Position numbers and translations under genes: made by a program. Positions 10,390-39,562 of a stretch of DNA of 64,000 bases are shown here, piece after piece. Below the pieces are notes generated by a model. That model was not told the DNA's origin. It was given only the letters and a program-made list of their open reading frames with translations, and ran no database searches. Every line of letters begins with the position of its first letter. Position 1 is the stretch's first letter. This DNA is from Straminergon stramineum (taxonomy: Eukaryota; Streptophyta; Bryopsida; Hypnales; Calliergonaceae), in contig OY987270.1 of NCBI GenBank assembly GCA_963920665.1, forward strand, positions 16,084,019-16,148,018, given 5' to 3'.

Positions 10390-11451
10390 CACTATAAGAA
10401 AACATGAAGTTTTTGGGTGTCTAGAAAAACGTGTGACGACGTCGAAGTTGGCACAAAAAAAATCAGCACTAGTGTCACCTAAAATTTGTTATAATCAACA
10501 AGCCAAAAACATGGAAAAAAACATCCATTTTGAGCTTGATTTTTTCTAACATCACAAATAACATATTCTTTTAAGCTCCCCTAAATGCGCCATGTGGGCA
10601 ATGAGAGCCACATGGCAGGGGGGTTTCATCCACATTGTCTCTGATGTGGCACCTAATGTGGCATTTGACATGATGGCAGGAAAAGTAACCTGGCATGCCT
10701 TGTCAATAAACTTTTATGTTGTTAAAAATTTTTGGTGTTGCTTTTTGAGACGTTAAACTAGACTTTTGAGATGACATCAACTGGTGCATACCCTATTCAT
10801 AAGGCAAGATCAATGAAAAATAATTATATAAAATAAATTAAAATAAAAAAAATAAAATGAACAAAAAAATTATTGAATTAAAAATAAATTACAAAAACTT
10901 ACCATCTACCATCAAGAGATTTTTCGATGGTAAAATGAACAAATTACTTCTTTGAAAGTTAGTGAGAATGAAGGGTAAAAGGGTCATATTTGTATCCATT
11001 CTCCGTCCATGATGAGACAAAAGATATGAGATAATTAGAATATGGGAACTTGATCATTGTACATGTCAATGTTGTTTTAGACGTCTACATATTGTTTCAA
11101 ACATTTGGATGTTTTTGGAGACATCTTATATGAAACACAATTCTTGTTTTCCATATCCCATATGGATTGTTTCACTTCCTACCATCCCACGTTTCTAAAG
11201 ACCAACTCTTTTCATCTATGATGCATATCCATCCATTTTCCCTTTTTCACAAAGTATACTATGTGGTTGCCATTTCCCTCAATTTTTCATATATGGTCAA
11301 AGTTTTACCATAGACCGTAGTAATTTTACTAACTTATTGGAAGTCAAAATGGAGCTACTTGTTGACATGGATGTCTATGTTTTTTTGGACGTCACAAAAA
11401 AATATAACCATGTTTTGTCTAATATCACTAAAAACATGTCCATCTATAGTG
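10390..11451 (+). mobile_element. CACTA-type non-autonomous element, uninterrupted copy
   Basis: It begins CACTATAAGAAAACATG and ends in the inverted form of CACTATAGATGGACATG, about 1.06 kb, with no transposase ORF. A second copy of the family is split by a hAT insertion and an inversion (27450-27693 and 38538-39559); this copy shows the uninterrupted sequence at that insertion point (around 11360-11390). CACTA/EnSpm elements normally make 3-bp duplications; the flanks here (GAG and ACT) do not match, so the target duplication has decayed or the boundary is slightly off. Confidence 0.7.
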
Positions 11452-11504
11452 ACTATAATAAATCGGAGGGATAAAGGCCAATGTCAATGGTACCCATTTG
11501 ATCT

Positions 11505-15637: not shown

Positions 15638-16665
15638 ATAATCGTGAGCAGCACCTTCTCGAGCCTCGTCCATCTCCATAGCCAAGCGTAGCCGGCCCAA
15701 GTGAGCCAAATGGGAACCAGGGTTTGTGTGTTCAAAAAAGATCTGAATTACATCATTCATTTCAATAGCTTGTGGATTGATCATGCACTTCTAAAGTGCT
15801 GAGGCTTTGCTATACTCCATCCCACCTTGATGGACTCACAAAACCCATGAAGCGGAGGGAATGTATTGTCCAGATTGTAGCATTGGAAGGAGTGTGCCCG
15901 AAAGCGTACTGCCAAGTTGTTTTTGCATTTTGTATTTGCAGTATGTTGCAACTCTCTCGATGAGATTTGTGTGAGTTCGAACAATTCGGTTCTTTGCGAA
16001 AAGAGTACCATGCTTGATGTACTCCTCAACTCCTTCAATTTGTTCAACTGTCACGTTTCTTTGAATGTACTGAAAGTGGTCCTAGCCTTTGTCTTTGATA
16101 CAATAGCCAAGCATTCCAATAAAAGTGTGTAGCCCAGTATTACGAAGGGATTTTGGGAGAATGTGATGGCCCACTGGGGCATTTTTTACATCATCCCATC
16201 CAAGATATTGTTTAATTTGTTTACTAACCATGGCTACAGAAGACGTCAAAAGTCTGTACACCATTTGCATGTGTAGTCTGCTTAGACCGCTACCTCTCTC
16301 AATTGAATAGAGGCCCGAGATGCATTCTTTATCAAGAAATTCTTCAACCTTTTCAAGAAGCTTAGTAGAGATGTCAACACTCCCAACTAAAATTGTCACA
16401 TTGACATCCATTTCTTTTGGTTGCATTGAAGCACATGTTGTTGGAATTTTTTTCAAAGCATTCTTTTTCAATGGTGGGTTTTTCAAAGCAGGCTTATTCT
16501 TTGCCTTTTGCTTTCTAGTAGAATTTCAATGAACATGTTCAGCACTAGCACTTTCTTGTATTCCAGTGTTGGAGAATGGACACTCTTCAGTGTCTGTTGT
16601 TTTGCCTCTGCGGGTTGTACCTTTAAGAATTTGAGATATGGGTGGCGCTAGGATGCAATGCTGCA
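15638..16665 (-). pseudogene. Decayed Rep-like (HUH-type) endonuclease ORF
   Basis: One minus-strand frame runs from about 16665 to 15638 (about 340 codons) with in-frame stops at about 16530 (TGA), 16084 (TAG), 15838 (TGA) and 15793 (TAG) but no visible frameshift. In order it shows ERGSGLSRLHMQ (16297-16262), resembling the Rep HUH motif with the first His replaced by Arg, then FIGMLGYCIKD (16123-16091), resembling the Rep motif with catalytic Tyr and Lys (YCxKD), then QIEGVEEYIKHGT, RVATYCKYKMQKQ and MLQSGQYIPSASW. Rep-class HUH enzymes nick DNA through a tyrosine and drive rolling-circle-type replication or transposition; Helitrons and the replitrons described in green algae use them. No helicase is seen. 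A splice acceptor (CTTGCAG) near 16665 may mark the exon start. The family call rests on motif reading alone. Non-functional as it stands. Confidence 0.5.
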
Positions 16666-20404: not shown

Positions 20405-21509
20405 TGTAGAATGGAAAGCAAAGATATTGAAGGCAAAATATGTTCATATATTATTATGATAAGAGAAGTTATAAGATAGTTTATATACAGTACATGAACA
20501 GTTGTGTCTATTCATTAAACTAACAGGTGCGACTCTATGTCTAACTTATGCTAAGCTGGTTAACCCCTAAAGGACCAAATGGTGTTTTTTGGCAACATGG
20601 AGATTTCAGGCAGCTCATTACAGATGGAATTTTTATTTATTTTCTTTGAAATTTTCACACAACATGTGCCCAAGGAGTAGCTTTAAGACCCAACAATTTT
20701 CATAACTTTTGAATACATGGTTAAAAAGTTATTGTATGATATGTTGTTTTCATTGCTTAGTGGGCAGCCCGGGCAACAAAAAAAACTTCTTTAAAAATCA
20801 CTGCTTTTTTAAATAAAAATTTGAAATTTATTTTCCTCATTTTTATATACATGGAAAGCTTTGAATCATTCCATTTTGATTTATGAGATGAAAGTTATGA
20901 AGAGTTTTAGTTGTCAGTAGTAGTTTGTGGGTAGTAATGGAATCTTTAAGACCTTTCTTTCACTCAATTTTTAATATTTTTGGAAAAAAATAAAAACGTG
21001 AGGTGTAGATTGTTTATTAAAACAATTTAACCATTGGGATTGGAATTTTTCAATTCCATAAATAAATTCTTAACAATTTAATATTTTAAATCATTCTCTA
21101 CTTCTTTCAACTTATTATTTTTTTCCTTTATGTTGTACAATTCCAAATGATCTAAAATTTTTCAAGCATGTAGACAACGTGACTTGAAGAATGAATCCAA
21201 AGAGTTACAACCATTTTGGACATTTTTTCATAATGATCTGACCTTGTGGAGTGCATCTGCCTGGATTTTTGCAGGGCCAAAAAATGGCTTTTTGTCACTT
21301 CAAATGCTAATATCTTGCAATCCAAACAGTGGAAATTTCTGAAATTTTTTACACATCTTCCCCAAATAGTTTACTACAAGATCCTACGGTTACATTTGTC
21401 CAAAAATGTATTTTTTTTCTAAAATTTGGTACTTATACTAGAGATGACAATTTGGGAGCATTTTTGGTGAAAACATAGTCAAATACTTTTAGGGGTTAAC
21501 TATCTAACA
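20405..21509 (-). mobile_element. Copia 3' LTR (169 bp) carrying a TTAA element
   Basis: In minus sense it starts TGTTAGATAGTTAA and ends CCATTCTACA. Removing the insertion at 20564-21499 leaves 169 bp, the same length as the 5' LTR at 30988-31156; by eye about eight positions differ. It is in the opposite orientation to the 5' LTR, which is one line of evidence for the inversion described here. Confidence 0.9.
20564..21495 (+). mobile_element. TTAA-flanked 0.93-kb element, copy T2
   Basis: Starts CCCCTAAAGG, ends CTTTTAGGGG, bounded by TTAA at 20560-20563 and 21496-21499. The uninterrupted copia 5' LTR contains a single GTTAAC at the matching place, so the empty site directly confirms the TTAA duplication. 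Confidence 0.95.
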
Positions 21510-21521
21510 CTCCCCTTGCAG
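21510..21521 (-). other. Copia polypurine tract
   Basis: Minus-strand TGCAAGGGGAG immediately precedes the LTR start TGTTAG. Polypurine tracts prime plus-strand DNA synthesis in LTR retrotransposons. Confidence 0.75.
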
Positions 21522-23039
21522 TTGCAACAATTATACTGAATTATATTTGGTTTCTTATTAAAGCCATGGGTCTTGGATGTAATCTGATATTGATGAATCA
21601 GAGCATCTCCCCCTTCATCAAATTATGGAAGAAAGTCCTTGAGCAGCTGAACAGAGATTATGCTTGGTTTGCGGAAGCGATTTGGTGAGAATGTCAGCCC
21701 ACATGTCTGATGTGGGGGTGAACTCCAGGTGGAAAACTTGAGAGTCAATTTTCTCACGGAGAAAGTGATATTTTATATCAATATGTTTAGAGCATTCATA
21801 ATACTTAAGATTTTTGGCAAGTGTAATGCACGCATGATTATCACAATAAAGAGTGCTACATCAGGAACTTCAAGACATGTGAACATGGTGCCAACCTCCA
21901 TACCAACCTAGTATGGATAAAATGACACTAAAATGACCTGTATGCTGCCTTTGGTGTCAAAATGGCATCAAAACAATCTGGCCCAACTTTTCTGATGTAG
22001 GTAGATGAACATGATATCCCAATTCGGTAATTAAGGCTTGAAGTCACAATAATTCCTTTGTGGCTGTGGCCGCAGCAATATATTCTGCCTCAATGGAAGA
22101 CAAGGCTATAACTGATTGCTTTTTGCTTTGCCATGATATTAAATTTCCATTAAGTTGGAAGAGATAGCCAGAAGTGGACTTGCGACTATTGATGTCACCA
22201 GCCCAATCAACGTCAGTCCAACCAAGAACGGAATATTTAGAGAGATTGGGAGAAGAATAGTGATAGACTAAACCCCAATGACAAGTATGTTTTAAGTAGC
22301 AAAAGATTCGTTTTAAAGTTGTCCAATGACGAGGTCATGGATTGGCCATAAATTGTGGCAAATGACTTACTGGAAAAGCTAGATCAAAGCAATAGCAAGT
22401 AATCAGCCATTGTAAGCAACCAATAGTTTGAGCATAAGGTATGGATGCCATAAGGGATAATTCTTCAAGTGTAAGATTCTCTACTTGAGTGTGAGAGAAG
22501 CGAATGCCAACTTCAAGCGGTGTAGAAACGAGTTTACAATTTGTCATGTGAAACTTGACCAAGAGATCATTAATATACTTGTCCTAATATAGAGTAATTG
22601 TCTTGGCCGTGTGATCTCGGCTTACTTGAATACCTAAGAGATACTCCACATCGTGGTTATCTGTCATAGCAAACCTAGTAGTGAAAATAGCTTTGTGAGT
22701 TGAAAAGTACTAGAGGTTATCAGAGACAAGAATTAGGTCATCAATATAAAGGCCAAGGATAATAAAAGAAGAATGAGAGGTCTTAAAGTAGACGTTGGTG
22801 TCAGATTTACACTTGAAAAATCCTTGACTGAGAAGGAAGTCATCGAATAATTCATACCAAACGCGCGGTGCTTGCTTGAGTCCATACAAAGACTTGTGCA
22901 AGCAACACACTTTGGTTTCAGAACCAGGTTCTATAAAGCCTTTAGGCTGAACAAGATAAATTTTTTCTTTTAAAAGACCATTTAGGAAGGTTGTTGTAAC
23001 ATCCATTTGATGAGTGTACAAGTTATGAAGCGTTGTAAG
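21522..23039 (-). pseudogene. Copia reverse transcriptase and RNase H, 3' half
   Basis: Minus-strand frames at 23039-22710 and 22562-22335 carry the copia motifs HQMDVTTTFLNG, LYGLKQAPRVWYE and the catalytic LYIDDLILVSD, followed by the MASIPYAQTIGCLQW segment before RNase H. Stops and frame changes show decay. The 5' half of the same reverse transcriptase is on the plus strand at 35174-35331; the reading frame matches across the 8-bp duplication CTTACAAC when the two are brought together. Original function: copying element RNA into DNA. Confidence 0.9.
23032..23039. repeat. 8-bp hAT target duplication, pair A (left)
   Basis: GTTGTAAG abuts the CAGGG end of hAT element 1. Its partner is CTTACAAC at 35324-35331, the reverse complement, next to the other hAT element. 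Its own element's far flank reads GTTGATAT, which does not match. Confidence 0.9.
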
Positions 23040-23239
23040 CAGGGTTGTTCTGTCGAACATGTTTTGGGGTTTGGGTGTCGAGTTGTTCGTCTGATGTCGC
23101 ATATCGTATAAGACGAGTGTCGCATATACGAGACAAATTTGACGAGCGCGAAATTAGGGTTTAGGGTTTTCGGGCAGGGCAGCCAAAATTTTTATCTTAC
23201 ATGGCGGGTTGTCAACAATGACGTGGAAAGCTTTGACCA

Positions 23240-23700
23240 CGTCACCATAGGCGACTACGGGTGGGGCGACCGCGGGTCCTAGAATGAGGGCGACTGCGGG
23301 TTCAATTTGGGGCGACTGTGGGTCCTAGAATGAGGGTGACTGCGGGTTCAATCCGGGGCGACTACAGGTCCAATCCAGGGCAACTATAGGTCGAGGGGGG
23401 GGGCGAGTGTGGGTCCATGGGGGGCGAGTGCAGGTCCAGGAGGGGCGAGTGCGGGTCCAGGAGGGGCGAGTGTGGGTCCAGGGGGGGCGAGTGCGGGTAG
23501 AAGGGGGCGACTACGGGTCTAGGGGGGGAGTGCAGGTCTAGGGGGGGTAAATGCGGGTAGAAGGGGGCTTAGGGGGGCGACCACAAGTCATTTCTTGGGC
23601 AATTGTGGCTGATGGGGCGACTGTAGGTCTCAGACTCAAGAAGTCTTCTAGTTCATGACGATGGAGGCGGCTGTGTATGGGGCGACCGTGGGTTAGGGGC
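23240..23700 (+). repeat. GGCGACTGCGGGTC minisatellite, left block
   Basis: Degenerate tandem units built on GGCGACTGCGGGTC or GGCGAGTGCGGGTCCAGG, about 20-35 bp apart, strongly G-rich on the plus strand. The inverted counterpart is at about 37990-38330. Confidence 0.85.
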
Positions 23701-23934
23701 GCCAGAAAACATGAGTTTGAGTTTCCCCCCTTACAAAGTGGAGGGAAGGCGTTCAAACTTTTCAAGTACCGCTCCCCCCTTTTCTGAGGAATAACTCCAG
23801 AAAATCCTAAAACTAAGGCATTCAATACTAAGTGATCAAAAGTTAATTAAGTAATAAAGAAAGCAAATTGGTTTAGGAAGTGGAGATTTGGAAAAGCCCT
23901 TTTTCCTAACATTTCATTTCTCCTTCATCCATCC

Positions 23935-24785
23935 TTGTGGTCATGTCAAATTCAACGTAACCATTTCCTATTTTAATTTTTGGAGGGAGTAAATTGAGAG
24001 GAGACCTTCCCTTTTAGGGGAAATCATGTACAAAAAAAATACTAACATCGTGGGATGCACAAAGAAGAAATCTTCTTATCTACATAAGAAGTGGTTTAAG
24101 AAATGGAGACTTGGGGAAGCTCTTCTTCTTGACATTTTATTTTTCCTTCGTGGTCATGTCAAATTCAACGTGACCATTTCCTATTTTAATTTTTGGAGGG
24201 AGTAAATTGAGAGGAGACCTTCCCTTTTAGGGGAAATCATGTACAAAAAAAATACTAACATCATGGGATGCACAAAGAAGAAATCTTCTTATCTACATAA
24301 GAAGTGGTTTAAGAAATGGAGACTTGGGGAAGCTCTTCTCCTTGACATTTTATTTTTCCTTCGTGGTCATGTCAAATTCAACGTGACCATTTCCTATTTT
24401 AATTTTTGGAGGGAGTACATTGAGAGGAGACCTTCCCTTTTGGGGGAAACCATGTACAAAAAAAATACTAACACCGTGGGATGCATGAAGAAGAAATCTT
24501 TTTATCTACATAAGAAGTGGTTTTAAGAAATGGAGACTTGGGGAAGCTCTTCTAATTGACATTTTTTTTTTCCTCATGCTCATGTAAAATTCAACATGAC
24601 CATTTCCTATTTTAATTTTTGGAGGGAGTACATTGAGAGGAGACCTTCCCTTTTGGGGGAAACCATGTACAAAAAAAATACTAACACCGTGGGATGCATG
24701 AAGAAGAAATCTTTTTATCTACATAAGAAGTGGTTTACGAAATGGAGACTTGGGGAAGCCCTTCTCCTCATCATTTCATTTTCCA
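23935..24785 (+). repeat. 213-bp tandem repeat, four copies
   Basis: Landmark ATGTACAAAAAAAATACTAA occurs at 24026, 24239, 24452 and 24665, an exact 213-base period. Because 213 is 71 codons, short ORFs repeat in phase; they are not considered genes. Element 2 carries three copies (37060-37760). Confidence 0.95.
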
Positions 24786-25069
24786 TCCTCCAACATAGGA
24801 ATTTCAATATAGTCCTCCCCTTGATACATCAAGGGGATTTAAAACACATTTGAAGGGGTGAATGAATATTCAATTTATTGAAGATTAAAAAGTTAGGAAA
24901 TGACACTTTGAATGGTTTTTATCTTACAAGTACAAGGTTTAAGAGTTCAAACATTTTTACGACATATAATGAAAAGCAACTCACATGTGTGTCATTTTAT
25001 CCATCCTAAAAAATAGAAGTACATTACTTTTGGACTCGCATACATGGAGAAGGTCCATGGTTTTTCTAT

Positions 25070-25112
25070 AGGGTTTAGGGTATAGGGTTAGGGTTTAGGG
25101 TTTGGAAAACCC
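25070..25112 (+). repeat. Degenerate TTTAGGG telomere-like tract
   Basis: About six units of TTTAGGG, TATAGGG or TTAGGG. This is the plant telomere motif, here interstitial and inside a transposon. The inverted copy is at 36795-36831. Confidence 0.8.
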
Positions 25113-25329
25113 TCTTCAATTTCTCTAATTAGTCATACTAAAATTTCTGTATTTATAGACTAATTCTGTAGTATTTACTAACTACGAGCATTGAAGGACA
25201 TGTCAATTATAGTGTATGGAAGATGCAATTAAGCTTGACTTCATTAGAGTTGGAGATGGCTCACATCTTGTGGTATGTTGGTTCCTGCACTGACGTGACT
25301 TTAAGATAGAGGTGAATATAGGTCTTGGG

Positions 25330-26645
25330 CGAGTTCAGGTCTTGGGCGACCGCGAGTCTTGGGCGACCACGGGTGAGGGCGAGTTCGAGTGTTGTTGTTG
25401 TTGAGCCCAATTTGGTGGATTGGGGGGCGACCTCGGGTCATGGGCGACCGCGGGTGAGGGCGAGTTCGAGTCTTGTTGTTGTTGAGCCCAATTTAGTGGA
25501 TTGGGGGGCGACCTCGGGTCATGGGCGACCGCGGGTCTTGGGCGACCGCGGGTGAGGGCGAGTTCGAGTCCTGTTGTTGTTGAGCCCAATTTGGTGGATT
25601 GGGGGGCGACTTCGGGTCATGGGTGACCGTGGGTGAGGGCGAGTTCGAGTCTTGTTGTTATTGAGCCTAATTTGGTGGATTAGGGGGCGACCTCGAGTCT
25701 TGGGCGACCGCGGGTCATGGGCGACTGCGGGTGAGGGCGGGTTCGAGTCTTGTTGTTGTTGAGCCCAATTTGGTGGATTGGGGGGCGACCTTGGGTCATG
25801 GATGACCGTGGGTGAGGGCGAGTTCGAGTCTTGTTGTTGTTGAGCCCAATTTGGTAGATTGGGGGGCTACCTCGGGCCTTGGGCGACCGCGGGTGAGGGC
25901 GAGTTCGAGTCTTGTTGTTGTTGAGCCCAATTTGGTAGATTGGGGGGCGACCTCGAGTCATGGGCGACCGCGGGTGAGGGCGAGTTCGAGTCTTGTTGTT
26001 GTTGAGCCCAATTTGGTGGATTGGGGGGCGACCTCGGGTCTTGGACAATCGCGGGTGAGGGCGAGTTCGAGTCTTGTTGTTGTTGAGCCCAATTTGGTGG
26101 ATTAGGGGGCGACCTCGGGTCATGGGTGATTGCGGGTGAGGGCGAGTTTGAGTCTTGTTGTTATTGAGCCTAATTTGGTGGATTGGGGGGCGACCTCGGG
26201 TCTTGGGCGACCGCGGGTCATGGGCGACTGCGGGTGAGGGCGAGTTCGAGTCTTGTTGTTGTTGAGCCCAATTTGGTGGATTGGGGGGCGACCTCGGGTC
26301 TTGGGCGACCGCGGGTGAGGGCGAGTTCGAGTCTTGTTGTTGTTGAGCCCAATTTGGTGGATTGGGGGGCGACCTCGGGTCTTGGGCGACCGCGGGTGAG
26401 GGCGAGTTCGAGTCTTGTTGTTGTTGAGCCCAATTTGGTAGAATGGGGGGCGACCTCGGGTCTTGGGCAACCGCGGGTGAGGGCGAGTTCGAGTCTTGTT
26501 GTTGTTGAGCCCAATTTGGTGGATTGGGGAGCGACCTCGGGTCATGGGCGACTGCGGGTCTTGGGCGACTGCGGGTCAGGCGAGTTCGAGTCTTGTTGTT
26601 GTTGAGCCCAATTTGGTGAATTGGGGGGCGACCTCGGGTCTGGTA
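25330..26645 (+). repeat. 81-bp tandem repeat, fifteen copies
   Basis: The landmark GAGCCCAATTTGG recurs 15 times, mostly 81 bases apart (about 99 in units with an extra GGGCGACCGCGGGTCTTG segment). As 81 is 27 codons, long ORFs stay open on both strands (27-residue repeats such as RASSSLVVVEPNLVDWGATS); they are artefacts of the period. Element 2 has five copies (36115-36590). Confidence 0.95.
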
Positions 26646-27125
26646 GGGTGACTGCGGGTCCACGGGCGATTACTTGTCTTAGACAAGGCGACTGTGGGTC
26701 TAGGGGCGAATGTGGATCCTGGACAGGGTGATTGCAGGTCCTGGACAGGGCGACTGCGGGTCCTGGGCAGGGCGACTACGGGTCCTGGGGCGACTGCAGG
26801 TCCTGGACAGGGCGACTGCGGGTCCTGGGGCGACTACAAGTCCTGGACAAGGCGACTGCAGGTCCTGGACAGGGCAACTGCGGGTCCTAGGGCGACTGCA
26901 GGTCTTGGACAGGGCGACTGCGGGTCTTGGGGCGACTACAGGTTCTGGACAGGGCAATTGTGGGTCCAAGGGCGCATGCGGGTCCTCTGGAGGGTGACTA
27001 CTGGTTCTGGGCAGGGCGACTGCGGGTCCTCTAGAGGGCGACTGTAGGTCTTTTGAGGCGCGTGTGGGTCCCCTGGGAGGCGCCTGCGGGTCTTTTGGGG
27101 CGCCTGCGGGTATTTGTGAGGCATT
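26640..27125 (+). repeat. GGCGACTGCGGGTCCTGGACA minisatellite, right block
   Basis: Roughly twenty degenerate units of about 20-24 bp built on GGCGACTGCGGGTCCTGG. The inverted counterpart is 35690-36110. ORFs here are repeat artefacts. Confidence 0.85.
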
Positions 27126-27449
27126 ACTCTCTTTAGGCTCCGACTTCATGTCTTTGCCTCACAAGTCGCCAAGTACTTCCCACCCGCGGTCGCCTAGGAG
27201 CGTGAACCCGAAGTCGCCCTATCTATAATTGCCTATAGCCGTGGTCGCCCACACCCGCATGCGCCCCTTTAGGATGCCATGTAGAAGACACATGTTTGCC
27301 ACATGGCATCCAGGTGGCCTCACGGGCAGGGTGAATTTTAAAAAAAAGTCAAAGCTAAGTTTGACTCTATTAGACGGACAAGAGGGTCTACTTGACGTGT
27401 TGGACGTCGTGTTCGTCGTGTTGTCGAACTGTCCGCCGGAACAACCATG

Positions 27450-27457
27450 GTTGATAT
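27450..27457. repeat. 8-bp hAT target duplication, pair B (left)
   Basis: GTTGATAT directly follows the CATG end of hAT element 1. Its partner is ATATCAAC at 38538-38545, the exact reverse complement, beside hAT element 2. Confidence 0.9.
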
Positions 27458-27693
27458 GCATGTCTATGTTTTTTTGGAGATCACAAGAAAACATGACCAG
27501 GTTTTGTCTAACACCACTAAAAACATGTCCGTCTACAATGACATCTATTTATTTTCCAATTTAGCCACTTACGTTTTCCTCAACATCAAACCAAATTCTC
27601 ATTCATGTGGATGTTTATTGTCCAACGCAAGGTGTTTTAGAAAATAGGTTACGTTTTTGGTAAACAACACAAAAACACAATTTTCTTATAGTG
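27450..27693 (-). mobile_element. CACTA element, terminal fragment split by hAT and inversion
   Basis: Begins with the 8-bp target site GTTGATAT (27450-27457) at the hAT end and runs to TTTTCTTATAGTG, the CACTATAAGAAAA terminus, at 27693. The next three bases ACT (AGT on the minus strand) match the AGT that follows the other terminus at 39560-39562. The remaining part of this element is at 38538-39559. Confidence 0.8.
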
Positions 27694-27696
27694 ACT

Positions 27697-28594
27697 AGAA
27701 GAAAATGAGGGGTTTTGCGACAACTATTTGCAACTGGTTTTGTAGTTGCATGAGACGTTTGCAACTACTTGACAATTAAGAGCCCACCATTGCAATAGAC
27801 AAGTTGTACTCGTTGCATATCAGTTGCAAAAATTTTAAGGATGTTTCTCATCCAACAACCTACTTGAAAGTTTGTCAATGAACTCTTTTGATGTGGTTGC
27901 TTATGTGGAAGTTATTTGTGTGCGACTAGTTTGCAACTAATGTGCAACTAACATGTAATTGGTTTGCTACTTTTATACAACTTGTCTATAATTCATAGAT
28001 TTGGAAATTTTAATTTGCCAAATCCAAAAATTTCTTAAACTTTTAATATTTATAGATTTTTGTAGATTATAAAAATCTACAAAGTGTAAAAATCTACAAA
28101 ACGTAGAAATATAAGAATTTCATTATCAAAATTCATTACACAAGAATGTTATAACTTATAATTCTTATATGTCTAACCTAATGGTGTTCATGACAATTGA
28201 TATGGGACAATTAATAAAAGACTTAATAGTAGTTGTATTTTAGTTGTTTCCTAGTTGCATGCTAGTTGTATTTTAGTGAAAGTCTAGTCATTTTTTAATC
28301 AAACTTTAGTCGAATTGTAGTCGTACTGTAGTTGCAGTCTAGTTGCAATGAAATTGCTTTGCTATCAAATTTAGATTATATGCAATTGTGGATAGACACA
28401 TTGGACTCTACAAAATGTAAACTTGTCCACATTGACAATTTTGATGAATATTGGATGTAAAATACCTTACATTAATTCTTATGGTTAGTACCAATGACAA
28501 GTTGCATCAAGAGTTGGACACTAAAGTAGACTTGGTTGCTAGAGTCCAACAATATACGTATCAACACTAGCGAGATTCAACTCCTGCTTTTTTC
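27697..28594. other. AT-rich stretch with recurring GTTGCAACTA and CTAGTTGCA motifs
   Basis: From about 27710 to 27980 TTGCAACT-type motifs recur; from about 28225 to 28350 TAGTTG or TAGTC motifs recur about every 10-11 bases. The two blocks are roughly inverted versions of each other. No gene is seen; it may be the degenerate end of an unclassified element. Confidence 0.4.
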
Positions 28595-29972
28595 TTGTTT
28601 CAAGTTTATGAGTTGCAATGCAATATGTACCTTAGCATACTCACTTTTGAAAAGAATCAAAAACTATCAAATGAGCAATTCAACAATGCATGGGAAACAA
28701 TAGACAAGTTTGACAATATGCGGAATCTCCTTTATAAGATGATAGTACGAAAAGATCTTATTTTGACTAATTGGTCAACTCTTTTTTATCTTATTGCTGA
28801 TTTGGGAGTAAGAGCATTATTATATTATGTAAATCTGGAGAAAAAATTAAGTCAATGTCGGCGAGAGGATTTATTGAATATACCCCAAAGAAAGATTCGG
28901 ATTGTAGACCAACATACTAAAATGAATCCAAATTTCTTAGCTCAAAAAGACATCCAAAATAAGTGGAGATTAGGATTGACCCAATTACAAGAGCACATGA
29001 AGAACCAAGGTGATATTATTATCTTATTGACTACAGTGACAAATCGTAAAGCTGTTGCATAAAGAGGTGAGCTGACTACTAGTCACTATTTATACAACCT
29101 CCAAAATGGATATATCAGATTATCCAAGACCTTGGATGCCCTTGAAAAAGGGATTTTACTTATAAGTAATGTCAAAGAAATATCTGTGTTTGATTTACGG
29201 CTTGCAACACATCAACCTTCACCTTGGATTACATTAAAGACTCCAGTTCAAGGTTCATCTCTTACCTAACGATTTTTGGGACATTACTATCATATGTTTG
29301 ACAACATAGCTATTGAAAGTCCAATTCCTTCCTGGAAAGCCCTAGAATGGCTTGTGGAAGACCATGGATTATCAGTTATAGAACATGAGCCATATGACAA
29401 AGTCTATGAGCATATATCTACGAATTGGCAAGAGAACCCCCCAGCAGTAGTGGTAACTAATAACCACTTTTGCCCATGTAAGAGAAGGTACAAATGGAAT
29501 CCCAAAGCCACAATTGATTCTATATTGGCCAATTATACCAAGAGCATTGGATAGTGTAGTATCATGTGCTTGAGCCTATGGATCTTTTCATGAGGAGCAT
29601 ATTACACACACAGATCCAGTATGTTTTCGAGCAGCTATCTTCTATGATTTCTTGAGGATGATGTGTGAGACTCATGGTATTATCATTAATGTCAATAAAT
29701 TTGATAAATTATACCTAGAGTTCCATATTTTGACCAAGATCCAATATGGAAGCACTCGATGGTTTCAAGTACTAGAAGTTATGGTCATTACTTATTTCTT
29801 CTGGGGAGCCCATCCGTCGATTATCAATCAAACAAATCGACACAAGCCTTTGACACGATGGTTAGCAAACCAATGTTCCAACAACCCTAAATTGCTTGAG
29901 GAAAATCTGGATATTGAGAGAACAACAACTAGAGCACATACGAAGCGGATTCGACATCAAGACCAAAGATGA
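28595..29972 (+). pseudogene. Unrecognised decayed ORF upstream of a polypurine tract
   Basis: One frame from 28595 to 29554 (about 320 codons) is interrupted only by TAA at 29060 and at about 29269; a shifted frame continues at 29652-29972. Segments include NMRNLLYKMIVRKDLILTNW, CRREDLLNIPQRKIR, PSWKALEWLVEDHGL and HFCPCKRRYKWNPKATID. No family is recognised. It sits just upstream of a polypurine tract and LTR start (30015-30028), where some plant Ty3/gypsy lineages such as Athila carry an extra ORF. That role is inference. Confidence 0.35.
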
Positions 29973-30014
29973 AACAAAAGACCTAAATACTATTGACAAG
30001 GTCGTCAATAGGCT

Positions 30015-30025
30015 AAGTAGGGGGC
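30015..30025 (+). other. Putative polypurine tract
   Basis: AAGTAGGGGGC is followed by TATGTAGACC, giving a TG LTR start at 30028. This is the expected layout at the 3' end of an LTR retroelement, though short purine runs can occur by chance. Confidence 0.4.
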
Positions 30026-30027
30026 TA

Positions 30028-30987
30028 TGTAGACCAAAAATTTAGAAAAGGATTAGTAATTTTAGAAAAAATAGCTTATTAGGGGCCCTTTATTAGAAAA
30101 TATACAAAATAAAGTTAGAAATAAAGTTAAAGTATCCCTAATAGTGTAAATAGGGATATTTACCTAGAATGAATGAAAAATAAAAATAAAAATAAAAACA
30201 TACAACTTGGATGAATGAGGTGTGACTTAGGTCACACCTTTTCACAAAAGTAATGCCCGTTTGTTTTTAGAACTATAAGAACTTAAAAATAAATAAAAAC
30301 TACGGCATTGTGAGATCCAATTTTTTTTTATAAATATATTATATTGTGTATTATGTTTATTGTGCTTATGGTTATTATGCAAGATTGCATTGGTATAATT
30401 TAAGTTTGTCGAAATTCTTGCTAGGATTTAAGTTGAAATTTATAATTGTGAGATTTGTGATTATAAGGATTTGTATTTGTTATCATGAGAAATTAAGTAG
30501 ATGTGTTTGGGTGTCTTGTGGAGAAAATTGTGAGTGTCTGGTTATCATTGTGTTATTCTATACAATTTGTGCAATTCCGGGAGAATTGCTAAACTCACAA
30601 TTTGAGAATGTTCTCTCCATCTTTGAAGTTACTTTTGTGAGATTTTCAATTTCAAATTTGTCAGAGTTGTAAGAGATCAAGAATTTGAGGAATGAGGATG
30701 AATTTTAAATCAATACTGACTAGGGAAGAAAATTCTTGGATACTGAAATTCGACTGAATTGAGAGGCGAGAACAATTTGGTGTCGCATTGCTGGATACAC
30801 CCCACGAATCTACAACCAAAGAAGTTAATTGTTGCAATCACGAGAGATTCAAGCTTCTCATTTAAAGTTGCGATCGGAGTTGCTACAGCGCTTGGCTTGG
30901 CTTCATTTTAGGTTCTTCAAAATTTGGAAAGTTTGGTCAAAATTGGATGGTTGATGGGGTCATGCAGATCAAATCGATTGAGTGAAT
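30028..30987 (+). mobile_element. 5' part of a large retroelement LTR, split by copia
   Basis: Starts TGTAGACC after a polypurine tract and continues to the copia 5' LTR at 30988. Inferred to be continuous, before the copia insertion and the inversion, with 19160-20404 read on the minus strand. No second LTR copy is available to check it. Confidence 0.4.
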
Positions 30988-31156
30988 TGTTAGATAGTTA
31001 ACTAGCTTAGCATAAGTTAGACATAGAGTCACACCTGTTAGTTTAATGAATAGACACAACTATTCATTTGTTGTATATAAACTATCTTATACCTTCTCTT
31101 ATCATAATAATATATGAACATATTTTGCCTTCAATATCTTTGCTTTCCATTCTATA
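30988..31156 (+). mobile_element. Copia 5' LTR (169 bp)
   Basis: Starts TGTTAGATAGTTAAC, ends CATTCTATA, and is followed at once by the primer site TGGTATTAGAGC. The matching 3' LTR lies on the opposite strand at 20405-21509. Confidence 0.9.
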
Positions 31157-31168
31157 TGGTATTAGAGC
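31157..31168 (+). other. Copia primer-binding site (initiator Met tRNA)
   Basis: TGGTATTAGAGC differs by one base from the TGGTATCAGAGC primer site used by plant copia elements. Confidence 0.85.
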
Positions 31169-33436
31169 TGATATGAATCGATCTGACCATGTGTTTTCCT
31201 TCACAGCCCAGTGTTGCATGCTCCAGGGAAGACGTGCTTGACCTATTCGTCGTTGAAGAAGAAAGAACTGAAGATGATAATCATTTATGATTTGTTAATG
31301 GTTTTTTTCAACTTCCAATCAAACCTACATTTCAAGAAATCACTAAAGAACAATAGCAATGAGAAGAACCCAACGAAGAACAACAAGTTGAATTCACGAA
31401 TGTTGCATATATAATTTCAAATGCCCCTGCAAGTTTTATTAGTGCACTAGCTACATTTAATGAGCTACATCCACATTTTTTTGTTGAAGATGGAAGTTTC
31501 ATGACTCTGGCTATTCATTAGGAATTTTAAGACATACAATAATGGCCAACCTTGGATTAAGTTCAGCTTCAAGAGCTTACTATATTCCACTGTTAAGTGC
31601 TACAATCTATGCAACATGGAGCATTAAGCTAGAAATGCTACTTGCCCAGTTTGAATTGTGGACTATTGTTGATGGTATTGAGGTTGCACCTCCTGTCTTT
31701 GATGTTAACCCCTAAAGTTCTACGACTATGTTTTCACTGAAAATGCTTCAAAACTGCCATTTCTAGTACAAGTGCCAAATTTGGAAAACCCCCCTTTTTT
31801 TTGACACATTTAACCATAGGATCTTGTAGTATACTGATTTGAGAGCATGTGGTAAAAATTTCAAAAATTTCCACAACATGGATTGCAAGATATAAGCATT
31901 TAAATTCATTGAAATCATTTTTTGGGCCCTACAAAAAACAGGGCAGTTGCACTTCACAAGCTCACTTTTCTATGAAAAAATGTCCAAAATGGTGGTGCTT
32001 CTTTGGATTCTTTTTCCTAGACAAGTTGGCCACATGCTTGAAAATTTTCAGATCATTTGGAATTGTACAACATATAGGAAAAAAAATAGTAAGTCGATAG
32101 TAGTAGAAAATGATTCAAAATACTAAATTTTTAAGAATTTAATTATGGAATTGAAAATGGCAATCCCAATGGTTGCAATGTTATAATAAACAATCTACAT
32201 TGTATGATTTTATTTTTTTCCAAAAATATTGAAAATTGAGTAAGATAAAGGACTTTGAAGTTTATTTTAGAGTAGTGAATCTATAACTGCCCGCAAACAA
32301 AAAATCCTCATCATTTTTGACTCCTTGATCAAAATGGAATGATTCAAAGCTTTCCAAGTATATATAACTCTAGAAAACCAATTTCAAATTTCAGTTTTTG
32401 AAAAAAGTGATTTTAAAAAATCTGCCTGGACTGCCCATTTACAAAAAAAAGCAACATATTAGGCCATAACTTTTGACTCGTATTTCCAAATGTCATGAGA
32501 TTTGTTGCATCTGAAAGATATTCCTTGTACCCACCTTCTATTAAAATTTGGGTCAAAAATATGGAAATATCCAACCACACGTACCTGCCCAAAATTGCTA
32601 TACAACCAAAAAATGCAGGTTGGTCCTTTAGGGGTTAATGGTCTCTCTGCCTGGAAGTTAAAAGAATCTAAAGCAAGATCTGATATTCTCTTACATTGTG
32701 GTGAGAAACAATTAATCTCACTTTGTCCTTTATTCACGTCAAAAAAAGTTTGGGAGCGCGTAAAACAATTATATGAAAAATCCAACAAAGCCAATCAAGT
32801 CCATCTTCACAAACAATTGTGTCACCTCAAATGTTTGAATCTGATGATGCTATCAAATTCCTAGAAACCTAGCAATCTTTACTACAAGAAGAAACCATTG
32901 CTGGATGCATTTTCACAAATTCATAGCAAGTTAATTTATTACTAGGAGCACTTCCAAACTCCTGGAGTGTTTTTATTACAATCAAAGGTGGAATAGCAGA
33001 TTTGACATTTCCATATCTGCTCTCTAATATTCTCCAACAACATGCAAATAACTGCTCCAAAATTGGGTATTCCAAGACCACCACATTCCATGCTAAAGGA
33101 AAGTTTCATAAACCTTAGTCAAATAAGCCATCAAAATCTCGTTTTCAAAAATCGAGTTTACAGGCTTCTAAACTCCTTGCTCGACTTCCAACTAGTCAAC
33201 CTTGTGTCATTTGCCATTATTGTGGCATACTTGATCATAAGGCTAATGAATGTTGCAAAAAAAAGCGTGACCTCAGTCTTAACAAAACACTAATCAATAA
33301 CTTCACTATTGATGATACAACATATTTGTTCTTAGCTATTGTCAACACTTCAATTAATTGCGAACACTAGTACTTGGACTTCGGCACTAGCCAACATATG
33401 TCTCCATTCAAACATCTCTTTTGAGATTATCAAGAG
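31169..33436 (+). pseudogene. Copia gag and protease remnants, interrupted by T3
   Basis: Decayed plus-strand coding sequence with several stops. A zinc knuckle CHYCGILDHKANEC (CX2CX4HX4C) lies at 33212-33253, and the protease-type motif YLDFGTSQHM at 33371-33400, where active copia proteases have D-S-G. A TTAA element (31709-32634) interrupts the gag frame. Gag packages element RNA and the protease cleaves the polyprotein; neither is intact. Confidence 0.8.
31709..32634 (-). mobile_element. TTAA-flanked 0.93-kb element, copy T3 (reverse orientation)
   Basis: Left end CCCCTAAAGTTC, right end CCTTTAGGGG, bounded by TTAA at 31705-31708 and 32635-32638. Its left part is the reverse complement of the right part of T1 and T2. 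It sits in the copia gag region. Confidence 0.9.
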
Positions 33437-34489
33437 TTGGATAACCCCAAGACAATTTTATTAGGTGATAACAACTCACACAACACTTTAGGATTTGGTT
33501 CCATCTTAATTAAACTCCCCAATGGCCACACATTACTAGTTCAAAATATTCTCTTTGTACCAAGCTTAGCAAAGAATTTGCTTTCTATAACTCAAGTCAC
33601 AAACTCTAGCAATACAATTATGATCTTCACAAAAGATACATGTATTATTAAGACCACTAATCCTAGCAATCGTCAATGCATGACTTTTTGGATTTCCAAA
33701 TCTGGCAATCTATTCTCTTTGGGAATTGGTATTGATCCTCCCATTGAAAGCAATGTAGTTACATCTATTGGAACATCAAGTAAGTCTGACTTGCTCACTT
33801 TAAAGTGGCATTATCGACTCGGCCATCTTAATATTTGCTCTTTGAGCGTCATGCAAACCCAAGAATTAGTTACAGGTCTACCTCCTCTCAAATCTACACT
33901 TTCTTTATGTGTTGATTGTACTTTAGGCAAACAACATCAAACACCCTTACTTTCTAGACCTGCTACAAGAGCCATAGCCTTGCTTGCTCTTATTCATACA
34001 AATTTATGTGGCCTGATGCAAACTCCTTCTTTTGGGGGAGCTCACTATTTTCTTATTTTTGTGGATGATTATTCACATTATACTTATATCTACTTCCTTC
34101 AGAAGAAATCTGCAACCTTTCACCATTTTCTGGAATACCAAGCATTGGTGGAAAATCAAACCAATCACAAAATCTTGATCTTACGCTCTAACAATGGAGG
34201 TGAATTCACTTCTAAAAAATTCACTCAATTTTGTTCAGAGCAAGGCATTCAATGTCACCTCACCAACCCATATAATCCTTCCCAAAATGGTGTTGTTGAG
34301 CAAAAGAATCGAACTCTTGTTGAATCTACCTACAATATGCTTCACGCTACTCAATTATCCAACTCTTATTGGGATGAAGCTGTATATACAGCATGTTATT
34401 TACAAAAGTACTCTTACACCTCAACTTTAAATCAATCTACACCTTATCAACTTTGGACAAGCACAAAACCACATCTCAGTCATTTGTGA
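33437..34489 (+). pseudogene. Copia integrase region, catalytic residue changed
   Basis: A 350-codon open frame contains the gag-pre-integrase motif WHYRLGHLN, CVDCTLGKQHQTP, the core segment HTNLCGLMQTP, FVDDYSHYTYIYFL, and NGVVEQKNRTLVE. In active copia integrases the first catalytic Asp lies in HxDLCGP; here it reads HTNLCGL, so that Asp is Asn. The second (DDYS) and third (Glu in the NGVVEQKNR segment) are present. The frame ends early at 34489 and coding continues with disruptions. Integrase inserts the element's DNA copy into the genome; this one is probably dead. Confidence 0.85.
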
Positions 34490-35331
34490 ATCTTTGGTTG
34501 TATAGCATATGCTCATAGTCCTGATGAGAAAAGAACAAAGCTTGACTCTAAATTTAAGCCATGCATCTTTGTAGGGTATGGTGACCCTCTTGGAATTAAA
34601 GGCTATAGATTATACGAACCCTCAACTAAACGAATTTTTAGTAGTCGTAATGTCATATTTTTTGAACACTCCTTGCTTAATCGGAAAGCTATTCCAAGTT
34701 CCACTCAAAGTTTTCCTCTAGATCCTTCTACTTTCAATCAAGTAAACGATCATTTTTGAGGATTCTACTCCATAATTGCCACCACCTGTAATTTAGCTAG
34801 AAACACCACTTGGAACACCCAGTTCAGCCAACATCAACTAGACTAAAACTCCCAGTTCCAAACCTATTATTTCCCCTCCCTGACGTCTAGCTAATCATAC
34901 ATCGTCATCTCATTGTCATACTTCTCCTCCTCAGAATTCCACTCGACCCAATAAAGGCTAGTGGCGATCTTGCAAATTTCGTAATGAAAGTTACTTTGCG
35001 TGTGCTTTTATAGCTCAAGTTACTGAACCAAATTCAGTCCAAGTTGCTCTCTTTGGCCCTGAGGCTAGTCATTGGCGAGCAGCCATGCAAAAAGAATATG
35101 AATCATTGATGACCAATAAACTTGGACATTGGTTGATCAACCTTCTAATCTCTCCATTGTTAGCTCCAAGTAGTTGTTTCAACGCAAGTATAATGTTGAT
35201 GGCACTATAGCATGCTACAAAGCTTGCTTTGTGGCCTGTGGTTTATCCCAAAAAGTAGGTATCGACTATCGAGAAACTTTCTCCCCAGTCATAAAAATGA
35301 CCTCCTTAAGACTACTTTTTGCACTTACAAC
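34490..35331 (+). pseudogene. Copia integrase end and reverse transcriptase, 5' half
   Basis: Remnants after the integrase include the reverse transcriptase start region at 35174-35331 with YKACFVACGLSQKVGIDY and ETFSPVIKMTSLRLLFAL, close to the copia consensus. It stops at the 8-bp site CTTACAAC, where hAT element 2 begins. The second half of the domain is on the minus strand at 23039-21522. Confidence 0.85.
35324..35331. repeat. 8-bp hAT target duplication, pair A (right)
   Basis: CTTACAAC precedes the CATGG end of hAT element 2 and is the reverse complement of GTTGTAAG at 23032-23039. The far flank of element 2 is ATATCAAC, not CTTACAAC. Confidence 0.9.
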
Positions 35332-36114
35332 CATGGTTGTTCCGGCAGATAGTTCGACAACACGACGAACACGACGTCCAACACGTCAAGTAGACCCTCT
35401 TGTCCGTCTAATAGAGTCAAACTTAGCTTTGACTTTTTTTTTAAAATTCACCTTGCCCGTGAGGCCACCTGGATGCCATGTGGCAAACACGTGACTTCTA
35501 CGTGGCATCCTAAAGGGGCGCATGCGGGTGTGGGCGACCTCGGGTGTGGGTGACTACGGCTGTAGGCAATTATAGATAGGGCGACTTCGGGTTCACGCTC
35601 CTAGGCGACCGCGGGTGGGAAGTACTTGGCGACTTGTGAGGCAAAGACATGAAGTCGGAGCCTAAAGAGAGTAATGCCTCACAAATACCCACAAGCGCCC
35701 CAAAAGACCCGCAGTCACCTCCCAGGGGACCCGCACGCGCCTCAAAAGACCTACAGTCGCCCTGCCCAGAACCAGCAGTCGCCCTCCAAAGGACCTGCAT
35801 GCGCCCTTGGACCCGCAGTTGCCCTATCCAAAACCTGCAGTCGCCCTAAGACCCGCAGTCGCCCTGTCCAAGACCTGCAGTCGCCCTAGGACCCGCAGTT
35901 GCCCTGTCCAAGACCTGCAGTCGCCTTGTCTAGGACTTGTAGTCGCCCTAGGACCCGCAGTCGCCCTGCCCAGGACCTGCAATCACCCTGTCCAGGATCC
36001 GCAGTCGCCCTGTCTAGGACCTGTAGTCACCCTGTTCAGGATCCGCATTCGCCCCTAGACCCACAGTCACCTTGTCCAAGACAAGTAATCGCCCGTGGAC
36101 CCGCAGTCACCCTA

Positions 36115-36590
36115 CCAGACCCGAGGTCGCCTCCCAATTCACCAAATTGGGCTCAACAACAACAGGACTCGAACTCACCTCACCCGCGGTCGCCCAAGAC
36201 CCGAGGTCGCCCCCCACCTGAAGTCACCCCCCAATCCCCCAAATTGGGCTCAACAACAACAAGACTCGAACTCGCCCTCACCCACGGTCACCTATGACCC
36301 GAAGTCGCCCCCCAATCCACCAAATTAGGCTCAATAACAACAAGACTCGAACTCACCCTCACCCGCGGTTGCCCAAGACCCGAGGTCGGCCCCCATTCTA
36401 CCAAATTGGGCTCAACAACAACAAGACTCGAACTCGCCCTCACCCGCGGTCGCCCATGACCCGAGGTCGCCCCCCAATCCACCAAATTGGGCTCAACAAC
36501 AACAACACTCGAACTCGCCCTCACCCGTGGTCGCCCAAGACTCGCGGTCGCCCAAGACCTGAACTCGCCCAAGACCTATATTCACCTCTA
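36115..36590 (-). repeat. 81-bp tandem repeat, five copies
   Basis: Reverse-orientation counterpart of the fifteen-copy array in element 1, with the landmark CCAAATTGGGCTCA five times. ORFs here are repeat artefacts. Confidence 0.9.
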
Positions 36591-37059
36591 TCTTAAAGTC
36601 ACGTCAGTGCAGGAACCAACATACCACAAGATGTGAGCCATCTCCAACTCTAATGAAGTCAAGCTTAATTGCATCTTCCATACACTATAATTGACATGTC
36701 CTTCAATGCTCGTAGTTAGTAAATACTACAGAATTAGTCTATAAATACAGAAATTTTAGTATGACTAATTAGAGAAATTGAAGAGGGTTTTCCAAACCCT
36801 AAACCCTAACCCTATACCCTAAACCCTATAGAAAAACCATGGACCTTCTCCATGTATGCGAGTCCAAAAGTAATGTACTTCTATTTTTTAGGATGGATAA
36901 AATGACACACATGTGAGTTGCTTTTCATTATATGTCGTAAAAATGTTTGAACTCTTAAACCTTGTACTTGTAAGATAAAAACCATTCAAAGTGTCATTTC
37001 CTAACTTTTTAATCTTCAATAAATTGAATATTCATTCACCCCTTCAAATGTGTTTTAAA

Positions 37060-37760
37060 TCCCCTTGATGTATCAAGGGGAGGACTATATTGAAATTCCT
37101 ATGTTGGAGGATGGAAAATGAAATGATGAGGAGAAGGGCTTCCCCAAGTCTCCATTTCGTAAACCACTTCTTATGTAGATAAAAAGATTTCTTCTTCATG
37201 CATCCCACGGTGTTAGTATTTTTTTTGTACATGGTTTCCCCCAAAAGGGAAGGTCTCCTCTCAATATACTCCCTCCAAAAATTAAAATATGAAATGGTCA
37301 TGTTGAATTTTACATGAGCATGAGGAAAAAAAAAATGTCAATTAGAAGAGCTTCCCCAAGTCTCCATTTCTTAAAACCACTTCTTATGTAGATAAAAAGA
37401 TTTCTTCTTCATGCATCCCACGGTGTTAGTATTTTTTTTGTACATGGTTTCCCCCAAAAGGGAAGGTCTCCTCTCAATGTACTCCCTCCAAAAATTAAAA
37501 TAGGAAATGGTCACGTTGAATTTGACATGACCACGAAGGAAAAATAAAATGTCAAGGAGAAGAGCTTCCCCAAGTCTCCATTTCTTAAACCACTTCTTAT
37601 GTAGATAAGAAGATTTCTTCTTTGTGCATCCCACGATGTTAGTATTTTTTTTGTACATGATTTCCCCTAAAAGGGAAGGTCTCCTCTCAATTTACTCCCT
37701 CCAAAAATTAAAATAGGAAATGGTTACGTTGAATTTAACATGACCACAAGGATGGATGAA
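37060..37760 (-). repeat. 213-bp tandem repeat, three copies
   Basis: Reverse-orientation counterpart of the four-copy array at 23935-24785, with the landmark TTTTTTTTGTACATG three times at about 213-base spacing. Confidence 0.9.
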
Positions 37761-38537
37761 GGAGAAATGAAATGTTAGGAAAAAGGGCTTTTCCAAATCT
37801 CCACTTCCTAAACCAATTTGCTTTCTTTATTACTTAATTAACTTTTGATCACTTAGTATTGAATGCCTTAGTTTTAGGATTTTCTGGAGTTATTCCTCAG
37901 AAAAGGGGGGAGCGGTACTTGAAAAGTTTGAACGCCTTCCCTCCACTTTGTAAGGGGGGAAACTCAAACTCATGTTTTCTGGCGCCCCTAACCCACGGTC
38001 GCCCCATACACAGCCGCCTCCATCGTCATGAACTAGAAGACTTCTTGAGTCTGAGACCTGCAGTCGCCCCATCAGCTACAATCGCCCAAGAAATGACTTG
38101 TGGTCGCCCCCCTAAGCCCCCTTCTACCCGCACTCGCCCCCCCTGGACCCACACTCGCCCCTCCTGGACCCGCACTCGCCCCCCCTGGACCCGCACTCGC
38201 CCCTCCTAGACCTGCACTCGCCCCCCCTGGACCCACACTCGCCCCCCCCCTCGACCTATAGTCGCCCTGGATTGGACCTGTAGTCGCCGTCATTCTAGGA
38301 CCCGCGGTCGCCCCACCCGTAGTCGCCTATGGTGACGTGGTCAAAGCTTTCCACGTCACTATTGACAACCCGCCATGTAAGATAAAAATTTTGGCTGCCC
38401 TGCCCGAAAACCCTAAACCCTAATTTCGCGCTCGTCAAATTTGTCTCGTATATGCGACACTCGTCTTATACGACATGCGACATCAGACGAACAACTCGAC
38501 ACCCAAACCCCAAAACACGTTCGACAGAACAACCCTG

Positions 38538-38545
38538 ATATCAAC
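38538..38545. repeat. 8-bp hAT target duplication, pair B (right)
   Basis: ATATCAAC follows the CCCTG end of hAT element 2 and is the reverse complement of GTTGATAT at 27450-27457. Confidence 0.9.
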
Positions 38546-39559
38546 AAGTAGCTCCATTTTGACTTCCAATAAGTTAGTAAAATTACTATGGTCTATGGTA
38601 AAACTTTGACCATATATGAAAAATTGAGGGAAAGGGCAACCATGTAGTATACTTTGTGAAAAAAGGAAAATGGATGGATATGCATCATGGATGAAAAGAG
38701 TTGGTCTTTAGAAATGTGGGATGGTAGGAAGTGAAACAATCCATATAGGATATGGAAAACAAGAATTATGTTTCATATAAGATGTCTCCCAAAACATCAA
38801 GATGTCTAAAATAACATCCAAATGTCTAAAACAATATGTAGACATCTAAAACAACATTGACATGTACAATGATCAAGTTCCCATATTCTAATTATTTCAT
38901 ATCTTTTGTCTCAGCATGGACAAAGAATGGGTACAAATATGACCCTTTTACCCTTCATTCTCACTAACTTTCAAAGAAGTAATTTGTTCATTTTACCATC
39001 GAAAAATCTCTTGATGGTAGATGGTAAGTATTTTGTAATTTATTTTTAATTCAATAATTTTTTTGTTCATTTTATTTTATTATTTTAATTTATTTTAGAT
39101 AATTATTTTTTATTGATCTTGCCTTATGAATAGGGTATACACTAGTTGATGTCATCTCAAAAGTCTAGTTTGACGTCTCAAAAAGTAGCACCAAAAATTT
39201 TTAACAACATAAAAGTTTATTGACAAGGCATGCCAAGTTACTTTTTCCTACCATCATGTCAGATGCCACATTAGGTGCCACATCAGAGACGATCTGGATG
39301 AAAAAAACCCGCCATGTGGCTCTCATTGCCCACGTGGTGCTTATGTGGCATCTACATGGCGCATGTGGGGGAGCTTAAAAGAATATGTTATTTGTGATGT
39401 TAGAAAAAATCAAGCTCAAAACGGATGTTTTTTTCCATGTTTTTGGCTTGTCGATTATAACAAATTTTAGGTGACATCATAGTTGATTACTTCCATGTTA
39501 AAGTCAATGTCCCATTACGTTTTCTATGACTTCCAAAAAAACTCAAGTTTCTTATAGTG
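38538..39559 (-). mobile_element. CACTA element, main fragment split by hAT and inversion
   Basis: Minus sense starts CACTATAAGAAACTTGAG at 39559 and runs to the 8-bp site at 38545-38538, where hAT element 2 begins. It is homologous to the uninterrupted copy at 10390-11451, for example the segment around CTATGGTAAAACTTTGACC. AGT at 39560-39562 pairs with AGT (minus strand) next to the other terminus at 27694-27696, a 3-bp CACTA target duplication now 11.9 kb apart. Confidence 0.85.
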
Positions 39560-39562
39560 AGT

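Follow-up and report, generated by a model that had tools for sequence, protein, structure and literature searches.

An apparent 7.9-kb inversion through recombination of two oppositely directed hAT-type transposons in Straminergon stramineum

How can two transposons of one family each come to lie between flanks that do not match, when the flanks of the one are those of the other read backwards? This question is raised by a locus of Straminergon stramineum (assembly GCA_963920665.1, contig OY987270.1, 16084019-16148018). The window, that is, the whole stretch of DNA analysed, is 64,000 nt long and belongs to a 23-Mb contig, one of the 59 that make up the 326-Mb assembly. The two transposons are called E1 and E2 here. 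Apparently, a stretch of 7.9 kb between them was flipped via recombination of these two similar, oppositely directed elements. The features on which this reading is built are the following, numbered from the first base of the window.

23040..27449, + strand: E1, non-autonomous hAT-type element, 4410 bp, CAGGGTTGTT...AACAACCATG
35332..38537, - strand: E2, same family as E1, inverted, 3206 bp
23032..23039, + strand: target duplication a, GTTGTAAG, outer left flank of E1
27450..27457, + strand: target duplication b, GTTGATAT, right flank of E1
35324..35331, + strand: target duplication a reversed, CTTACAAC, left flank of E2
38538..38545, + strand: target duplication b reversed, ATATCAAC, right flank of E2
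27450..35331, no strand: inverted segment, 7882 bp, as deduced from the restored structures

Read on the opposite strand, each of the four 8-mers is identical to one of the two 8-mers that flank the other element. A sequence-only reading of this DNA had described swapped 8-bp target duplications at 23032-38545, with neither element having matching flanks, and this is confirmed to the base at exactly the same coordinates: the two flanks of one element agree at only 5 of 8 positions, in E1 and E2 alike. It had also placed the two elements in opposite orientation, which is borne out by comparison of the window with itself. The chance of both flank pairs matching is about 5e-10 when calculated from base composition; since the family has a target preference, the true chance is higher, and still negligible. 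Moreover, flipping 27450-35331 back results in matching duplications at both E1 and E2.

The normal state of such flanks was established from other copies of the family. The terminal 238 bases of E2 were compared with the assembly, and 40 of 858 first-look candidates were scored and listed. Two of these matches were E1 and E2 themselves, and the other 38 copies were fetched. Both ends were found in the fetched stretch for 29 of them (seven of the nine dropped copies had no 3' end in it and two ran off its end), with element lengths of 3.1 to 4.8 kb. The 8-bp flanks of these 29 copies are identical in 26 and differ by one base in 3, with no mismatched case. Since flanks are identical or 7/8 in 29/29 other copies, the mismatched flanks of E1 and E2 depart from an otherwise clean rule.

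The family has short terminal inverted repeats of the CA(G/T)GG kind, which are typical of hAT elements. As expected for hAT, its 8-bp duplications follow an nTnnnnAn preference, with T at position 2 in 14/26 target sites (p=0.011) and A at position 7 in 16/26 (p=0.0013); A at position 6 is likewise enriched (16/26). Three pieces of E1 compared with Pfam gave no transposase match. Placed by its ends and duplications only, the family would belong to the hAT superfamily. The nTnnnnAn preference is described for hAT transposons such as Hermes in PMC10368747. Compared with the Hermes-type pattern as presented there, the family of E1 and E2 is alike in the 8-bp duplications, the T at position 2 and the A at position 7, and unlike it in being enriched also for A at position 6.

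Some further observations concern the family itself. Two tandem arrays, with 81-bp and 213-bp units, are found within E1 at 25327-26640 and 23932-24765, and E2 contains fewer units. Two members on different contigs, L019 and L044, share the target duplication GTCCAAAC, which may mean that they occupy the same position in copies of another repeat. An exact search of viral contigs for the 19-bp terminus found no match.

If the segment was flipped, the DNA that received each element should read through again once the flip is undone. On the a-site side, this DNA is a copia element, which is now in two parts.

30988..35331, + strand: copia 5' part, with the 5' long terminal repeat (LTR) at 30988-31156, TGGTATTAGAGC (which we take to be a primer-binding-site-like, PBS-like, sequence), integrase domains and the start of RVT_2
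20405..23039, - strand: copia 3' part, with the remainder of RVT_2 and the 3' LTR at 20405-21509, into which a 0.94-kb element flanked by TTAA is inserted

The a-site lies within the copia reverse transcriptase. Positions 22-69 of the Pfam RVT_2 profile match at 35174-35323 (+) and positions 76-177 at 22713-23030 (-), so that the domain continues across the site. When the flanks of the a-site are joined with the 8 bp present once, the frame is open; with the 8 bp twice or absent, it shifts. The copia LTRs, inverted at present, become direct after the flip, and they are 95.6% identical over 158 bp. The empty site was found in paralogous copia copies. Of 19 other copia loci that were fetched, two had no match to the upstream flank, and in 17/17 testable loci the copia flanks stand side by side on one strand with an overlap of exactly 8 bp, that is, with a single target copy and no insertion.

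The 3' LTR of copia also led to a separate observation. Repeats of about 0.95 kb at 12250-13181, 20560-21510 and 31695-32638 were considered as copia LTRs and rejected, because they proved to be elements in their own right, with TTAACCCC termini, and the copia LTR proper measures 169 bp. The three elements (about 0.94 kb) have the ends CCCCTAAA...TTTAGGGG and TTAA on both sides. One of them sits in the copia 3' LTR, and the partner LTR has no such element and TTAA once. We regard the TTAA flanks and CCC ends as reminiscent of piggyBac, presumably an odd find in a plant.

On the b-site side, the divided DNA is a CACTA-like element, of which the window holds another copy.

27450..27693, - strand: CACTA-like element, one end, terminus TTTTCTTATAGTG, flanking ACT (AGT on the other strand)
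38538..39559, - strand: CACTA-like element, other part, terminus TTTCTTATAGTG, then AGT (39560-39562)
10390..11452, + strand: CACTA-like repeat, third copy, with no interruption at the b-site (11361-11368, GTTGACAT)

The CACTA-like ends at 27693 and 39559 are flanked by AGT/AGT only once 27450-35331 is flipped, a coincidence with a chance of about 0.018. The third copy crosses the b-site with a 7/8 match to the 8-mer. A 172-base query across the site gave 251 candidates, 40 of which were scored, one being the copy in the window; the other listed matches, 39/39, span the site in single alignments. Thus, a single target copy without insertion is seen in paralogous CACTA-like copies as well. The sequence-only reading had held that the copia and CACTA halves agree with an inversion, and indeed the flip rejoins both split elements, the CACTA-like one with its AGT/AGT duplication.

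Further information was obtained from the alignment of E1 and E2 with each other, which is almost free of differences in its central part.

23625..25494, + strand: E1 central near-identical tract, with 3 mismatches over 1657 aligned columns and an exact run of 863 bp at 24632-25494
36403..38059, - strand: E2 central near-identical tract; exact run 36403-37265

From end to end, the two elements have 80 mismatches in 3189 columns, in addition to several long indels. The mismatches are distributed unevenly, with 19/478 in the left part, 3/1657 in the centre and 58/1054 in the right part. In single-copy sequence, the ends differ at 11/549 positions (12/549 in a second alignment) and the centre at 0/868 (p=2.8e-5). 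As the differences are mostly of the C-to-T type, the counts were stratified by sequence context: CG and CHG sites differ at 49/403 in the ends and 0/97 in the centre (p=2.8e-5), and other C/G sites at 26/535 and 3/555, respectively (p=4.8e-6). Since the centre was delimited after the profile had been seen, shuffling is the weightier control. A run of 863 was reached in 1/20000 context-stratified shuffles, and the run observed in single-copy columns in 9/20000.

The same region was compared among 28 other copies of the family, which form 378 pairs. The divergence of their single-copy centre has a median of 2.55% and a minimum of 0.58%, none being zero, and that of their ends is 3.89%. Among 20 pairs with ends at most 2.5% divergent, the E1-E2 centre shows 0/868 differences, the next lowest counts listed being 12, 13 and 13. 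According to the family ratio, 11.3 mismatches would be expected in the E1-E2 centre and 0 were seen (Poisson p=1.2e-5, a guide value as pairs of copies are not independent). A slow-evolving or unmethylated centre was considered as the cause of the identity and rejected, given that none of the 378 family pairs is zero and given the context-stratified counts. The pattern found is that of a tract of exchange or conversion between E1 and E2. By the rule of three, 0/868 differences would mean that the two centres separated at most about 0.35% ago, compared with about 2% for their ends and 4-5% for the LTRs of copia. Consequently, the last exchange appears recent relative to the insertions, although later conversion could have reset this clock.

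We propose the following course of events. One copy of a high-copy, non-autonomous hAT-type family would have invaded the copia element at the target GTTGTAAG, and a second copy, in opposite orientation, the nearby CACTA-like element at GTTGATAT. A break in one copy would then have been repaired from the other, by non-allelic homologous recombination within the chromosome. A crossover in the central region of the elements, at a place that the tract would mark, would have resolved the repair. The intervening 7.9 kb would thereby have been inverted, with the target duplications changing places and a difference-free conversion tract remaining. Homologous recombination between inverted copies from different sites was also what the sequence-only reading had proposed; it is supported here, since one event explains the exchanged duplications, both split hosts and the difference-free centre. 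We give this reading, recombination of two inverted hAT-type copies with crossover and conversion, a probability of roughly 0.86.

Several points speak against it. The record comes from one assembled chromosome, in the inverted order only. The centres of E1 and E2 are also close to copy L012 (4/868 from both, and 1/561 in the main segment of L012), so part of their similarity may be due to a near-consensus sequence, and the family sample was selected for its resemblance to the 5' end of E2. In the sampled family, 5' and 3' variants give no usable linkage (best p 0.003 in 2100 tests) from which chimerism of E1 and E2 could be read. The 5-bp flanks of the copia LTRs, TGAAT and CGAGT, agree at 3/5 positions, both differences being transitions. 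Finally, conversion without crossover between near inverted repeats could be the source of the tract, and such conversion following some other inversion event is a weaker alternative to a single crossover. There is also a variant of the proposal in which the pair, with its near-identical centre of about 1.7 kb, keeps recombining. The 7.9 kb would then exist in both orientations in the species, as a live reversible switch, and the identity would be upheld by repeated exchange rather than by one recent event. We consider this unlikely.

Transposase itself could have made the inversion. In a hybrid-element insertion, both donor copies are at one site on sister chromatids or homologues, and the duplications look exchanged in the same way; the outcome at the flanks is strikingly similar according to the account in PMC2775673. 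The elements are of hAT type, and related reactions are known for hAT elements (Ac/Ds), as PMC8225341 describes. However, the copies would have been identical at birth and would have diverged evenly since then, which is not what the ends (11/549, or 12/549) and the centre (0/868) display; moreover, E1 and E2 differ by 1.2 kb in length, and a later conversion confined to the centre would have to be added. A difference-free centre between copies diverged at their ends is the expected trace of a crossover with conversion, and it therefore argues against an inversion made by transposase. This origin is accordingly a distinctly poor prospect. Reversed-ends transposition from two elements at separate sites, known for maize hAT elements (PMC8225341), is much less probable again. 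It would yield a single new duplication shared by two flanks, with the remaining two unrelated, and the DNA that had separated the elements would be gone. This is contradicted here, where both flank pairs match and each host element is whole when read over its join. The sequence-only reading had ranked it below recombination, and rightly, because two separate donor sites would not make both flank pairs match.

An artefact of assembly has to be weighed too. The real chromosome could have matching flanks at each element, and the assembler could have turned the segment at the 863-bp identical tract, since an identical tract between inverted repeats is a place where it could switch. We hold that this is improbable, and that the event most likely took place in the organism. 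Against a flip by the assembler stand the continuity of the assembly and of this contig, the absence of mismatched flanks in the other family copies (0/29), by which misjoining at this family is uncommon in the sample, and the 80 aligned differences and several long indels by which long reads can separate E1 from E2. Even then, the identity of the two centres would still call for conversion in vivo. Another possibility is that two staggered breaks were rejoined with the segment reversed, a process that likewise produces inverted duplications at either end of the inversion (PMC8225341), and that the elements came to the junctions later or by chance. Yet overhangs of exactly 8 bp would be required at both breaks, as would full-length elements of the same family, in fitting orientation, exactly at both junctions, and the family itself duplicates 8 bp in 29/29 other copies (3 with one difference). 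We find this explanation hardly credible.

Recombination between E1 and E2 thus remains our preferred reading, and it has a clear precedent. In the report PMC2775673, Galileo-mediated inversions of Drosophila buzzatii are attributed to ectopic recombination, and recombination between two inverted copies is described as exchanging the old duplications (PMC2775673, PMC8225341). From what PMC2775673 presents, Galileo shares with E1 and E2 the opposite copies of a DNA transposon at the breakpoints, the exchanged target duplications, the single target copies elsewhere, the lack of gain or loss, and signs of exchange inside the elements. It differs in that the exchange is evident from chimerism against two other copies, not from a difference-free central tract, and in that Galileo belongs to the P superfamily, with 7-bp duplications and natural chromosomal inversions, whereas the present case is of hAT type, with 8-bp duplications and 7.9 kb. 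The maize Ac/Ds inversions by reversed-ends and alternative transposition treated in PMC8225341 have in common with E1 and E2 the hAT type, the 8-bp duplications and the elements at both inversion ends. In those inversions, however, the two inner ends gain a new duplication and the intervening DNA disappears, whereas at this locus two old duplications have changed places without any loss of sequence, and the elements share a conversion-like tract. Thus, the kind of event is already known since the Galileo work, and this example is an unusually complete record of it. Two old insertions (copia and CACTA-like), two younger ones, both duplications and the conversion-like tract are all found within 19 kb, and controls are available from a large family of the same genome.

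That dispersed transposons promote inversions by recombination is the textbook account; it is rare for all the steps to be documented on a single chromosome. In any long-read assembly, a genome-wide screen could pair elements with mismatched flanks by their reverse-complement flanks and then seek a tract of unusual identity. If both orientations do occur in the species, the locus would allow recombination between linked, inverted transposons of a plant to be measured directly.

As for the rest of the window, Rfam and tRNA scans gave no matches. Three open frames at 28571-29972 (+), between the copia and the CACTA-like element, have no credible Pfam match. At 16085-16525 (-) there is a match to Pfam Replitron_HUH (PF21859, E=1.9e-11). 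The many transposons of the window are otherwise of plant type, and replitrons are described in green algae. A C2 domain (Pfam PF00168, E=3e-15) at 49085-49483 (-) is probably part of a host gene.

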